Assembly: GCA_944324225.1 (NCBI GenBank)
Contig: CALUVL010000001.1
Location: 1 to 64,000 of the forward strand
DNA length: 64,000 nt
DNA from: Candidatus Gastranaerophilales bacterium
Lineage (GTDB): Bacteria; Cyanobacteriota; Vampirovibrionia; Gastranaerophilales; Gastranaerophilaceae
Direction: 5' to 3'
Positions 26,881 to 32,939 of this stretch are shown one piece after another. How positions within the stretch are numbered: the stretch's first letter is position 1; the number at the start of each line of letters is the position of its first letter. The translations under genes were made by a program, and so were the position numbers. Below the pieces are notes generated by a model, which was not told where the DNA came from, did not search any database, and saw only the letters and a program-made list of their open reading frames with translations.

Positions 26881-27477
26881 CTAATTTCCTGAAGCCATCC
26901 TTCTCAGATACCTGTTCACGGTTGAATATGAAATGCCAAGGGCTTTTGCTATTTCTGTTTTTTCTAATCCTTCATTGATTTTTTCTATTATTTTTTTCAT
27001 CATATTTTCTTTTTTTCTTTTGATGTTTCCGAGGTGATATTTTTGTCTGAAGTATTTTACAGTGTTAATACTCAATTGCATTTTTTCAGCTATTTCTTTA
27101 TTAGTAAGATCTGATTTCAACAGTTCTATAGTTGTATTAAGTTTCATTTTGTGCGGACTTGATGAGAAGTTGTCTTTATACCATTTGTTAACCATGTATG
27201 CGCTTAAGCCTGTTTCCTGTGTTATTTGTCTTAAAGAAGAATTCTGCGTTGTATAAGGCATTAAAACCTCATCAATATTTTCTTTAATTTTTTTGCCCGG
27301 GGTTTCTATGTCAAAATTCTTAATTAGCCTGGAAATTGTGCTTGTACTGACTCCGAATTTTTCGGCAATTTCCTTTTTTGTCAGACCTTCTGCCAGATAC
27401 TGCTCTAATCTGGAAAGAGATATTTTTTTATAGCCCGTGAATGTTTGGGGTGTAATGTTGTAATTTGTGTTAATCAT
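26881..27477 (-). CDS. Multi-helix-turn-helix protein with N-terminal FTG motif
   Basis: The 198-residue protein strings together about four helix-turn-helix units: LTKKEIAEKFGVSTSTISRLIK, LRQITQETGLSAYMVNKWYK, LTNKEIAEKMQLSINTVKYFRQ and LEKTEIAKALGISYSTVNRYLR. This is a resolvase/Trp-repressor-like repeat without a catalytic or ligand domain. The first 17 residues (MINTNYNITPQTFTGYK) carry the short FTG peptide seen in other lineage-specific proteins. Repeated DNA-reading heads suggest binding to a long or repeated site. It is convergent with the TPR gene (13 nt gap). Confidence 0.8.
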   Translation of the reverse strand: MINTNYNITPQTFTGYKKISLSRLEQYLAEGLTKKEIAEKFGVSTSTISRLIKNFDIETPGKKIKENIDEVLMPYTTQNSSLRQITQETGLSAYMVNKWYKDNFSSSPHKMKLNTTIELLKSDLTNKEIAEKMQLSINTVKYFRQKYHLGNIKRKKENMMKKIIEKINEGLEKTEIAKALGISYSTVNRYLRRMASGN

Positions 27478-28818: not shown

Positions 28819-31800
28819 ATGACAGAGGTTAGTAAAATAAATTCGGCAATTCGTTCTTTTTTATCCAAAAACGAGTCGCTAAAATCATTGCCGAAAGGCA
28901 AACTATTATCAATAATGGTTATGCAGGGTATAATCAGTCATACTGATGCCTCTGAATATTTAAAAAATTCTACATTTGATACAGGATACGCAAGTAATTT
29001 TCAGGTTATTCCGCAGTGGGAAGGGGATAAGAAAGCATTTGATGAGTCCCTTGGAGTTCTGAATTCTGCACTGATGAGTGCCCGCCAAAAACTTGCTAAT
29101 CAGGATAATTCAGAAGGTGTTGTATCAAAAGCTGTGAATTATTTTAAGGAAATTTTTGATACTGATAACAAAAAATCTGATATGACCGCCGGAATTAGTG
29201 ATACCGAAAAAATTATATCAGAACTTGAAAAGTCATCAAGTCCGGAGGAGTTCAAGGCAAGGTTTAAAGATTATCTCGGGGTTGAATTCTCAGCCTCAAA
29301 AGTTCAGGACTGCAAAGAAAAAGCAGAGATTTTTAATAAAGCGGAAAGTATAAAATCTACGCTCGACGGGATAAAATCAAAACTTAATACAACTTCATTT
29401 AATGATCTGAACAGCGGAATTATTGAGTCGTTTCAGGCACTAGGTATCAGTGACATAGATGAAATAAATGCAATTATAAAAGATATTGAAGCCTCTCATA
29501 AAGATGATGAAGCAATTCAAACCTGGGGCGGGGATTTCAGGTTTGAGAAAAACTATTACGGAAATTATGTTCTCAACATGACCCGCAAAAACGGAAGACC
29601 GTTGACTGCAAACACTGAACAATTAAAACTGGTGGCAGAAGAAATGCTTTTACGGCTTAATAAAGCAGAAGCAGCCGCAATGGGGGTTGAAGTTCCGGAA
29701 GAGGCCACAAGCAAAGATATAGAACAACTTACAGAACAAAAATACAATAAAGTAAGAAGTGAATATAAAGATTCTTTTAAGGAGGCCTACGGGAACAAAA
29801 ACATTGAAACTATGGCCGAGGATTATATAAATTCTCAAAAACAAAATACGGCTTATGTACAGACAGCACTGGATGTGGCATCAATAGCGACTATGTTTAT
29901 GGGCGGCGGAGTTGTTTTGAAAGGTGTAAGTTTATTAACAAAGAGCGGTAAAGTTTTGAAAGCAGTTCAGACTGCGACAAATATTGCTGCCAAGGCGGCT
30001 CCTGCAGCAGCGGCCGTTCAGATTACAAGGCCGGTTGATCTTGTTGAAAATCTGTCATCAAAGGAGCCGGACTGGAAAGCTTACGGTATGAGTGTGGCAG
30101 AAGGCACAATGTGGATGGCTTTAGGTATGGCGACAGGAGCCATTGGCGACAAGGCAAGAATGTTCCTCGGACAAAAAGGGCTTTCGGCTGTTGCAAAAAA
30201 TTCTGGCAAATCAATTGATGAACTTATTGATGTGTATAAATCAGGCCATAAATTGCCTGCGAATTTAAAAAAATCTTTAGGCTTAATAGACAATGCCTCC
30301 AAAATCAGCGGTACAAGCGCAGAATTCACGGCGGATATCCTTGCAACCTACGCAATTCAGAAAGGCAGAGGCGAAGATTTAACTTTTATGGATTATCTGG
30401 GATCTGCCAACGGCGCTTTGATGGGAACCGTTATGCACAAAACTTTCGCTAAAATTTCCGATTCTGAAAAGCTTAAGGTAATCCAAAAAGGGCTTGTTGA
30501 AGCAAATCCGAATATGTCAAAAGCCGAACTTGAAAAAGCATCAAAAACGCTTCTGGAGGTTCACCGGCTTGCAGAAGAAAAGAGAGCGGAAGGGGTTTCA
30601 GAACCTGAAACAGCTGCAAAACCCGCCGGAACGGAAAAACCTGCGGAAGTCAAAAAAGTTGACAATTCATCTGAAATCGTTCTGGTAAAAGAAGCCTTGG
30701 ATAAAGACGGAAATAAAATTTTGCTGTTAAACGAAGCAGGTGAAGCAAAAGCCAGAGCTTCAGCTGATGAAATTCACGCAAAAGCAGTCGAGGCAGAATC
30801 CGGAATTTTGAAGTTGATGAAGGACGCAGGACTTGGCGAAGCAGGAGTGAATATGACCCACCGCCCCAAAAGCGCCCAGAGTCTTTATGACAAAATCCGG
30901 AACGCAATGACGGATGTAAAATCTCCTGCAACATTTGACGAAGCCCTCAAATCTGTCCGTGATGCCGTCGGTACAAGAACGGAACTTGCAGATTTCGATT
31001 ACAAAAAACATCCGGATATTGTCGAAATGTATAAAAAAGACCCCAAAAGAGCAATTCAAATGGCTTCTGAAAGACAGTCGGAAGAATATGTTCAAAAAGT
31101 GATGAATGTAATTAAAATGCAGGCTGAAAATCCGACGGATGCTCCTCTTAGTGCGATTAATATTTCAAACTATATGGGCAAAGACGGGATTCCTTATTTC
31201 TCGGCAAAACAGGTTGCAATATTAAGAGATTACGCAGCGCAGTTTGGAATTGAACTTAATGTGAAAGATAAACTTACAAAAGTGCGCCCATCAGGTTATA
31301 CTGCACTCCAGATGAATTTTGTAACCCAAGAAGGATTCACATTTGAGTGGCAGTTAAGGGGTTCAAAAGTCAACACCTTTGCAGAATGCGAACATGTCCC
31401 GTATGACATTAGAGAAGGCAAAGATGTGACAGGGGGCAAAAAGATTCTGGAAAGGCTTTATGCGCCGATTAAAGATGCAGTTGAGCATTTGGACGACAAG
31501 CAGTATGAGAAATACAACAACTACCTGACAGTACATTATGAACACCTGAGAAAACAGGAACTCGGTTTTGAAAGCACACCGCCGAAACTTGAAGATTACG
31601 GTCTGACAGACCCGAAACTCAAAGCCGAAAATCTCGAACTTCTACATGATTTGGCAGAAAAACTTAAAAAAGGCAAGTTAGACGAAAATACGGCACTTTA
31701 CACCTACGTTTCAAAGACGGAAAATAAATCGGGAATAAAAATTCCCTCAGGACGCCTTGCAGCCGAAAATGAAAAATTTGCAGAAACTGATAATGCTTTT

Positions 31801-32466
31801 GCAAATTTCATTAAAAACAGACAAGAAGATTTTAAAGCACTTTCAAAAATAGAAGATACCGACGAATTTATTGAACAGGGCGCAAAGTTGATTTTTGCCG
31901 AAATGGGGCTTGAAGGAGCTCCTATCAAAATTGAAATTACTGACAACCTGAACGAGTTTGATATGAATAGCGCTACTCTCAGAATTTCACGCAATTGGAC
32001 AGGAAAAGGTCACACCGCAGGCAAGGGCGACCGTGCTGAAATTCTTGGCGGAATTGCGCATGAAATGAACCATTTTCTTCAAAATAAAGAAATTTATCTG
32101 AATGCACTTCTTAGGGCTGATGAGTTCAAATACAAACTTGCTATGTCAGATGAATGTCAAAATTTGATGCTTTGGACTCTCGGTGCGGATGACTCTGGCA
32201 GCGCAAAATTCCCATATCCTCAGGAACAGCCGGACTACAATTTTGACAAAGCTAACGAATATATGGAAAGCTTTTTGAATTATATTGAACCTTACAAAAT
32301 ACAGGACTCTAATGGCAAAATGGCTTATGCACAGGATAAAAACGGAAATTATGTTATAAATGATGAAGCCTTTGAAGCATATCAGCGCCAGCTTGTGGAA
32401 GCAGAATCAATCAGGCGTGGCGATATTGTCAGAGATGAATACAAAAAATTAATAAACGGACAATAA
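28819..32466 (+). CDS. Large protein with RelA/SpoT-like domain and HExxH metallopeptidase-like domain
   Basis: The 1215-residue protein has no signal peptide. Residues 1-340 are helical and charged, 344-402 form an Ala/Gly-rich hydrophobic stretch, and 585-615 is an Ala/Pro/Glu linker. Residues about 678-870 carry the RelA/SpoT synthetase pattern: RPKSAQSLYDK (682-692), VRDAVGTRTE (713-722, Asp715), PSGYTAL (824-830), FEWQLRG (842-848, Glu843) and FAECEHVPY (854-862). Residues about 1020-1215 contain GGIAHEMNH (HExxH, 1081-1085) and QLVEAES (1191-1197) as a possible third zinc ligand. This mix of nucleotidyltransferase and peptidase domains is typical of effectors or polymorphic toxins, not of housekeeping ppGpp synthetases. 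The ATG has no SD; TAAAAT lies 4 nt upstream. A 145-residue gene follows after 35 nt. Confidence 0.75.
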   Translation: MTEVSKINSAIRSFLSKNESLKSLPKGKLLSIMVMQGIISHTDASEYLKNSTFDTGYASNFQVIPQWEGDKKAFDESLGVLNSALMSARQKLANQDNSEGVVSKAVNYFKEIFDTDNKKSDMTAGISDTEKIISELEKSSSPEEFKARFKDYLGVEFSASKVQDCKEKAEIFNKAESIKSTLDGIKSKLNTTSFNDLNSGIIESFQALGISDIDEINAIIKDIEASHKDDEAIQTWGGDFRFEKNYYGNYVLNMTRKNGRPLTANTEQLKLVAEEMLLRLNKAEAAAMGVEVPEEATSKDIEQLTEQKYNKVRSEYKDSFKEAYGNKNIETMAEDYINSQKQNTAYVQTALDVASIATMFMGGGVVLKGVSLLTKSGKVLKAVQTATNIAAKAAPAAAAVQITRPVDLVENLSSKEPDWKAYGMSVAEGTMWMALGMATGAIGDKARMFLGQKGLSAVAKNSGKSIDELIDVYKSGHKLPANLKKSLGLIDNASKISGTSAEFTADILATYAIQKGRGEDLTFMDYLGSANGALMGTVMHKTFAKISDSEKLKVIQKGLVEANPNMSKAELEKASKTLLEVHRLAEEKRAEGVSEPETAAKPAGTEKPAEVKKVDNSSEIVLVKEALDKDGNKILLLNEAGEAKARASADEIHAKAVEAESGILKLMKDAGLGEAGVNMTHRPKSAQSLYDKIRNAMTDVKSPATFDEALKSVRDAVGTRTELADFDYKKHPDIVEMYKKDPKRAIQMASERQSEEYVQKVMNVIKMQAENPTDAPLSAINISNYMGKDGIPYFSAKQVAILRDYAAQFGIELNVKDKLTKVRPSGYTALQMNFVTQEGFTFEWQLRGSKVNTFAECEHVPYDIREGKDVTGGKKILERLYAPIKDAVEHLDDKQYEKYNNYLTVHYEHLRKQELGFESTPPKLEDYGLTDPKLKAENLELLHDLAEKLKKGKLDENTALYTYVSKTENKSGIKIPSGRLAAENEKFAETDNAFANFIKNRQEDFKALSKIEDTDEFIEQGAKLIFAEMGLEGAPIKIEITDNLNEFDMNSATLRISRNWTGKGHTAGKGDRAEILGGIAHEMNHFLQNKEIYLNALLRADEFKYKLAMSDECQNLMLWTLGADDSGSAKFPYPQEQPDYNFDKANEYMESFLNYIEPYKIQDSNGKMAYAQDKNGNYVINDEAFEAYQRQLVEAESIRRGDIVRDEYKKLINGQ

Positions 32467-32501
32467 TTGCAAAATAATGTATAATAAAAAGTGAGGTAAA
32501 A

Positions 32502-32939
32502 ATGGAACCTGTAAGAAATTCAAAATTGCATAATATAACCCAAACCGGAGCAAAGATAAAAATGGAAAAATTTGAAGATCGACTTGCCAGAATGATTAAC
32601 GCCCTTAAGACCCGTGCGGAACGTGAGGTGTGCGAATACGGAAGCTTTAAAATCGTCAAGGAAAGCTTAAAAGCCCAAAAGCCGGAAAGTCTTGTACGGG
32701 AACTGACACTTCAGGTCACTCCGCTCCCGAAAGAACTAAAAAGCGAGGTTGAAAATTTTGAAAAGCTCCGCTACCTTGAACTTGTCGGAGAAGGCCCGCA
32801 GGGACAGACTTCAAGCGTTATTCTAAAGCGCGGCACAAAAGACGATATCCTTAAAAAACTTTCGGAAGATGATTTGATATCTAAATTGAGAGAAAAGACA
32901 GACGATTTTAATATAAGTTTCAGAGAAGATCAATTATAA
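32502..32939 (+). CDS. Unknown 145-residue protein following the RelA/SpoT-like gene
   Basis: It is not recognised. The protein is soluble and charged with a central beta-rich part (LVRELTLQVTPLPKELKSEV, RYLELVGEGPQGQTSSVILKRG) and a helical C-terminus. GTGAGG gives a good SD for ATG 32502; an internal ATG at 32562 is weaker. It lies 35 nt after the large gene with no terminator between them, so the two are probably co-transcribed. That makes it a candidate immunity protein, chaperone or adaptor; this is inference from position only. Confidence 0.7.
   Translation: MEPVRNSKLHNITQTGAKIKMEKFEDRLARMINALKTRAEREVCEYGSFKIVKESLKAQKPESLVRELTLQVTPLPKELKSEVENFEKLRYLELVGEGPQGQTSSVILKRGTKDDILKKLSEDDLISKLREKTDDFNISFREDQL

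Follow-up and report, generated by a model that had tools for sequence, protein, structure and literature searches.

A giant modular protein with a RelA/SpoT-type synthetase module and a linked small gene: a probable polymorphic toxin locus in Candidatus Gastranaerophilales

The giant protein and its neighbour

The window analysed here is a stretch of 64,000 nucleotides from a Candidatus Gastranaerophilales bacterium (GCA_944324225.1, contig CALUVL010000001.1), lying on contig 1 of a genome of 1.93 Mb in 28 contigs. It encodes a giant modular protein, in which a divergent RelA/SpoT-type synthetase module (SYNTH, hereafter the Rel module) is followed by an HExxH metallopeptidase-like module, and a small gene that starts 35 bp past the end of the giant and whose relatives accompany the Rel module (Table 1). 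Full-length orthologues of the giant are 86% and 76% identical. A canonical housekeeping Rel of 744 residues is encoded elsewhere in the genome (G000:C22; E 9e-45), which makes the giant a Rel-like protein of a divergent kind alongside it. Below, L-numbers denote fetched loci of relatives and G-numbers genomes, G000 being the window's own.

An earlier note on this DNA, made from the sequence alone, had described the giant as devoid of HD hydrolase, TGS and ACT domains and thus not a housekeeping Rel. A Pfam scan of the giant found none of the three domains expected of housekeeping long RelA/SpoT homologues, and both statements stand for the window's protein. The first does not extend to all of its sisters, since an HD domain (PF01966) occurs in the distant giants of L039, L041 and L051.

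Table 1. Coordinates of the giant, its modules and the adjacent small gene in the window
Feature	Position	Strand	Basis
Giant modular protein, 1215 residues	28819..32466	+	Open reading frame call; orthologues and module-sharing relatives
N-terminal tag, residues 1-47, common to giants with differing payloads	28819..28959	+	Profile of 14 N-termini
Head module, residues ~60-600	28996..30618	+	BLASTP to L051, L053, L072, L073, L075
Hydrophobic Ala/Gly-rich stretch, residues ~343-445	29845..30153	+	Sequence
RelA/SpoT-type synthetase (SYNTH) module, residues ~640-965	30736..31713	+	Motif conservation, profile matches, Pfam, AlphaFold2 model
HExxH metallopeptidase-like module, residues ~970-1215	31726..32463	+	Alignment of 7 members, profile match, Pfam
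TATAAT, -10-like element within the 35-bp gap	32480..32485	+	Motif enrichment upstream of partners
Small gene, 145 residues, predicted immunity protein cognate to the Rel module	32502..32939	+	Linkage counts; predicted fold

The Rel module and its downstream small gene

Conservation of the Rel module was assessed in 38 relatives from the same GTDB family, collected with residues ~640-965 and down to 24% identical to the window's module. The catalytic residues of the giant (R682, K684, S688, K692, D715, R720, Y827, E843, Q845, R847, E858 and H859) lie in the blocks R682-P-K684, S688, K692, D715, G718-T-R720, SGY at 825-827, E843-W-Q845-L-R847 and E858-H859. Identical in 38/38 relatives are R682, K684, K692, D715, R720, N784, Y785, Y827, Q831 and G839, together with E843, Q845, R847, E858, H859, Y862, Y902, G916 and P922, and near-invariance extends to S688 (34/38), G718 (36/38) and both S825 and G826 (37/38). 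The synthetase motifs that the earlier note had read at residues 678-870 are where it placed them. That note had also named the loss of Asp715/Glu843 and of the HExxH residues among homologues as grounds for giving up its proposal, and all of them proved invariant. In FaRel2, ATP, Mg and the acceptor base are bound by R64, K66, S70 and K74, by D90, G93 and R95, by Y128, and by E145 and Q147 (PMC11782079); the blocks of the window's module (R-x-K-x3-S-x3-K, D-x2-G-x-R, Y and E-x-Q) equal these, with the same internal spacing (PMC11782079).

Profile searches agree with the motifs. Searched against the PDB, a Rel-module profile picked out entries for GTP pyrophosphokinases and for small alarmone synthetases (E 4.6e-7 to 8e-5); phmmer with the whole 1215-residue protein found no match there. 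Pfam RelA_SpoT (PF04607) was matched by 28 of the 38 relatives at E <= 0.01, with two relatives above its curated cut-off of 27 bits (30.7 and 27.6 bits). The assignment is carried by this sequence evidence, the fold evidence given below being supportive only; judged on it, the middle module is a divergent but catalytically intact-looking RelA/SpoT synthetase and not a chance match. A degenerate, inactive Rel-like scaffold might be suspected from the low RelA_SpoT score of the window's module and from the missing histidine usual in the SLH motif, where Q831 stands; this is hardly credible, since the 38 relatives, divergent as they are, all keep the Arg and Lys of the donor site, the Asp that binds Mg, the acceptor Tyr and the catalytic Glu. 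Substrate choice (ppGpp, ppApp or tRNA) is not readable from the module's sequence. Among 386 sampled genomes of the phylum, the Rel module was detected in just two families, that of the window and another from its order; no relatives were found in the phage, plasmid and viral-contig collections searched, and NCBIfam and PADLOC returned nothing relevant to the locus.

The small gene, referred to here as the partner and overlooked in the earlier note, accompanies the Rel module almost without exception. A partner profile matched directly downstream and on the same strand in 39/39 fetched Rel-bearing loci, which include a few identical or closely related genomes from two collections, and in 0/7 loci retrieved because they share just the N-module or just the peptidase; all of these loci were chosen with the giant, not the small gene, as query. 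Independent searches of 182 genomes, the sample behind all genome-wide counts given here for Rel modules, partners and HExxH modules, placed a partner downstream of 98/105 strong Rel modules (E < 1e-40) and a Rel module upstream of 107/112 partner copies. Of the seven Rel modules without a downstream partner, two are contig breaks with the partner beginning another contig. A further exception, L096, has a partner just above the threshold (E 2.4e-5), and L097 and L099 carry an unmatched small open reading frame in the partner's place. Partners also occur as a tandem pair (L105) and as an orphan (L104).

The association survives when the rest of the giant changes. L040 has no detectable match to the window's N-module, yet its Rel module and partner are each 61% identical to those of the window, and L037, with a GNAT-like domain in place of the peptidase, retains a partner 80% identical. 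To judge from these sequences, the small gene stays with the Rel module and with no other part when the N- or C-terminal modules are exchanged, and this is the strongest support for reading the locus as a toxin. A neighbouring immunity or antitoxin gene dedicated to the enzyme is a defining feature of toxSAS; by linkage the partner is such a gene, predicted to inhibit the Rel module.

It is doubtful in the extreme that the giant is a non-toxic regulatory alarmone synthetase and the small protein its regulator or export chaperone. Rel enzymes are often controlled by partner proteins, and small genes adjacent to effectors can encode chaperones. Here, however, the partner follows the Rel module and neither the N-module nor the whole protein, differing payloads have differing small genes, and the genome already holds a housekeeping Rel.

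Upstream of the partner, an exact TATAAT occurs in 20/38 homologous stretches (4.9 in shuffles), an enrichment which makes it probable that in many loci the small gene is transcribed from a promoter of its own. The partner is predicted to fold as a helix, four strands and two helices, with a predicted local distance difference test score (pLDDT) of 81, and its family is unmatched in Pfam, NCBIfam and PADLOC. Foldseek and VIA-align gave weak, mixed matches (best Z 6.3) from which no reading was taken. A lineage-wide N-terminal F-x-G motif on small genes was dropped as a candidate, its enrichment being weak (7.2% vs 4.5% of proteins).

A second class of distant Rel-like proteins, ~320-340 residues long, was also found (L101:1628-3095, L102:1280-2643 and L103:1560-2940). 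Each is followed by an unmatched open reading frame of 119-125 residues, and the two may form a separate toxSAS pair.

Exchange of modules among the giants

The giants range from 1200 to 4355 residues and carry several payloads, and relatives differ from one another by swaps of N- and C-terminal modules. The tag of residues 1-47 is recognisable in 18 fetched giants, with or without Rel, and may be an export or targeting tag; a second, differently worded tag occurs on ten others. The head module likewise occurs in giants lacking any Rel module (L051, L053 and L072), and the Ala/Gly-rich stretch within it is a possible membrane or translocation segment. Behind the Rel module, a weak GNAT-like match stands in for the peptidase in L034 and L037, and nothing takes its place in L036 and L043. 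Common N-terminal region and exchanged payloads are thus both present, as in polymorphic toxins, and the effector-like architecture proposed in the earlier note gains support from these swaps and from the Rel-linked small gene, with toxicity and secretion as predictions.

Calpain-like domains occur in distant sisters, above the Pfam cut-off in L048 and just below it in L068. Both of these calpain-ending giants have an extra gene of ~100 residues between giant and Rel partner. The two extra genes (L048:4325-4621 and L068:3580-3888) are homologous to each other (E 2e-8) and distinct from the Rel partner, and are candidate immunity genes for a calpain-like toxin. Calpain payload with extra gene and Rel payload with partner together point to one small gene per payload. 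By eye, the giants of L047, L054 and L068 show EF-hand-like loops (DSDGNKILDSNE, NTNGDEKLDKTE) near their start, for which calcium control is possible.

The C-terminal module of the window's giant carries the gluzincin signature of an HExxH and a downstream Glu, with zinc binding and proteolysis predicted. The peptidase-like HEMNH recognised earlier at residues 1081-1085 is upheld by an alignment of 7 members, in which H1081, E1082, H1085, Q1088 and an E-x-E (E1194, E1196) are invariant, E1194 or E1196 being the candidate third ligand, and by a profile that places the HExxH in register with that of the minigluzincin MJ1213 (4qhf, E 2.4e-4). Such minigluzincins (MJ1213, projannalysin) and DUF6782 align HExxH on HExxH with the module, which differs from them in its extra C-terminal part with the invariant E-x-E. 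Weak Pfam DUF6782 matches were obtained for 3/7 relatives, and none in Pfam for the window's member.

In the 182 genomes, HExxH-module matches are mostly standalone proteins of ~300 residues, the others lying within giants of 1000-3300 residues. The module stands behind Rel in the close relatives L031 and L032 and, with an extra segment between, in L040; G122 has a match ahead of Rel, apparently in one frame of 1891 residues. L056 has the module without Rel, and its next downstream gene is S-adenosylmethionine-synthetase-like by eye, with no small partner. Rel plus HExxH is therefore one combination of exchangeable modules, and not a fixed two-domain enzyme. That no partner gene is visible for the HExxH module suggests that it poses no danger to the producer, which is what one would expect of a protease that serves in processing or acts on an external target. 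The window's genome encodes a second tag-bearing protein (L094:2460-5405, G000:C3), of 981 residues and without a Pfam match, whose head is hydrophobic and whose C-terminal part contains an HExxH (RHEMAHTND).

A toxin reading, its known relatives and possible delivery

Interchangeable modules (tag, head, Rel synthetase and HExxH), retained catalytic residues and a module-specific partner are established at the level of sequence. From them we infer a toxin role for the Rel domain, an inhibitor role for the partner and export of the giant. We thus read the locus, with a probability of roughly 0.75, as a multi-domain polymorphic toxin of the toxSAS or exported-alarmone-synthetase kind with its cognate immunity gene. 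The giant would leave the producer by a route recognising the N-terminal tag and head. In the target cell, the Rel module would stop growth by transferring pyrophosphate from ATP to one of three kinds of acceptor: GTP or GDP, adenine nucleotides, or the ends of tRNA. The 145-residue protein, made from its own promoter, would bind the Rel module in producer and kin and hold it inactive, and the peptidase, having no visible immunity partner, might cleave the toxin free or cut a target that the producer does not expose.

Several observations weigh against this reading. The window's module falls just below the RelA_SpoT cut-off when isolated (26.4 bits), and the whole protein scores 17.1 bits. Its AlphaFold2 model was built from only six sequences (pLDDT 79.8), and the best VIA-align match of that model, SaEAS (8vx3), has a modest Z of 7.4 (<8), with a root-mean-square deviation of 4.3 over 178 aligned residues. 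B. subtilis SAS2 and SAS1, RelP and Tas1 follow (Z down to 5.6), unrelated nucleotidyltransferases and an inositol phosphate synthase score close behind, and Foldseek found no match under E 0.15. The different fold for residues 678-870 that the earlier note would have counted against itself did not arise, the best matches, modest as they are, being small alarmone synthetases and Tas1. The reading is favoured by a correlation between the distances of Rel modules and those of partners (rho 0.68, 0/2000 permutations), but species phylogeny accounts for part of it, and because the partner's fold yielded no assignment, its inhibitory role is argued from linkage. No Sec signal peptide was seen in the N-terminus of the giant, and Pfam showed no known secretion domain. 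Finally, standalone Rel proteins of 442-461 residues with the same partner family (L059, L060 and L061) fit intracellular toxin-antitoxin pairs as well.

These standalone proteins speak for an intracellular toxin-antitoxin or phage-defence toxSAS, in which a trigger, perhaps HExxH proteolysis, would free Rel from a small antitoxin and growth would stop. The toxSAS toxin-antitoxin pairs, too, are characterised by a cognate neutraliser (PMC11782079). In size and build, however, giants that reach 4355 residues and combine a shared tag and head with varied payloads are unlike known toxin-antitoxin systems, and with no match in PADLOC, phages or plasmids this explanation appears unlikely.

Gastranaerophilales are known for life in the gut. 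This habitat and the calpain-like, HD and GNAT-like modules of the sister giants could indicate an effector against the animal host, or an extracellular enzyme, with the small gene merely shielding the producer before export; an immunity gene proves only a risk to the producer. Secreted alarmone synthetases acting outside cells do exist, according to a survey of exported alarmone synthetases (EAS; PMC12691689). We nevertheless give this alternative a slim chance, as no host-targeting signal was found in the giant, partner-linked toxins are typical of interbacterial antagonism, and tandem and orphan partners suit bacterial competition better.

The polymorphic toxin reading has precedents. Alarmone synthetases that are exported have been described, as have toxSAS enzymes accompanied by immunity genes (PMC12691689; PMC11782079). 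In the survey, EAS (SaEAS, AaEAS, VpEAS) join a SYNTH domain to varied export-associated domains (WXG/LXG, XopAD, MuF, DUF4157 and Rhs/PAAR), and forms linked to the type VII secretion system have a small downstream immunity-like gene (PMC12691689). Here too a SYNTH domain is tied to varied modules, putatively for export, and followed by a small gene. None of these five export domains was found in the giants, and Gastranaerophilales are not named in the survey's main text. In contrast to EAS, the present proteins are giants of 1200-4355 residues with several payloads and an unmatched partner family, found only in Gastranaerophilales among the 386 genomes. Since SaEAS lacks an adjacent immunity gene, a cognate neutraliser defines toxSAS and not all EAS; such a gene, by linkage, adjoins the window's Rel module, with inhibition predicted.

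Tas1 and its immunity protein Tis1 (Apk1), a type VI secretion system effector pair, likewise set a SYNTH toxin domain beside an immunity gene, and the AlphaFold2 model aligns modestly with Tas1 (6ox6, Z 5.6, root-mean-square deviation 4.6 over 162 residues); in contrast to that pair, no PAAR/Rhs or type VI link was found for the giant. The weak structural matches of the partner gave no basis for relating it to Tis1. The toxSAS pairs FaRel2/ATfaRel2, CapRel and PhRel share the catalytic blocks, their spacing and a dedicated neutraliser, but here the Rel domain sits inside giant modular proteins, the partner alignment has no conserved YXXY motif, and no partner matched pZFD. Polymorphic toxins with C-terminal swapping resemble the giants in their shared N-terminal part, exchanged payloads, payload-specific small genes and orphan partners, and differ in that the payload here often lies mid-protein, several occur per chain and the N-terminal tag is lineage-specific. 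The literature searched held nothing relevant on Gastranaerophilales effectors or giant proteins, or on polymorphic toxins with RelA_SpoT. The unmatched partner family, the unmatched tag and the giant several-payload build mark the locus as a variant of these known kinds.

If correct, this reading would add a common, uncultured gut lineage to those known to have toxic alarmone synthetases. It would also bring in SYNTH-domain partners of an unmatched family, which over half of the 182 sampled genomes, all of one family, contain. Several payloads with one small gene each would allow a clean matching of toxin modules to antidotes, and the pair of Rel module and partner is small enough for direct work in E. 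coli.

Regarding delivery, the window's genome has consecutive genes for FliE, FliF, FliH and full FlhA (L090:4992-11107, G000:C4) and two further FlhA-C-like paralogues of 492 and ~600 residues (L091, L092:5374-7149), possibly a flagellum-derived secretion system. Flg_bbr_C proteins number two in this genome vs seven to nine in 3/4 other families of the order; relatives in the order encode up to nine of them, together with a pair of full FlhA proteins. This reduced flagellar-type export apparatus is a candidate route for the giant, with nothing tying it to the locus. A wider scheme, in which the lineage would maintain an arsenal of multi-warhead giants (Rel, calpain, HExxH, HD and GNAT) with payload-specific immunity genes and tag-guided export through a flagellum-derived type III apparatus retained by the family after loss of most hook and filament genes, is speculative and in our estimation improbable.

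VirB4 of the type IV secretion system was absent from 13 genomes, and a phage sheath, present in only 4/13 and unlinked to the locus, was rejected as the delivery system. The window's genome does encode a phage tail-sheath protein (G000:C19:29377-29904, L093), from a prophage or a contractile particle. Within the window, a 198-residue protein on the reverse strand (26881-27477) contains three helix-turn-helix repeats and an N-terminal TFTG motif that is also present on other proteins of the lineage.

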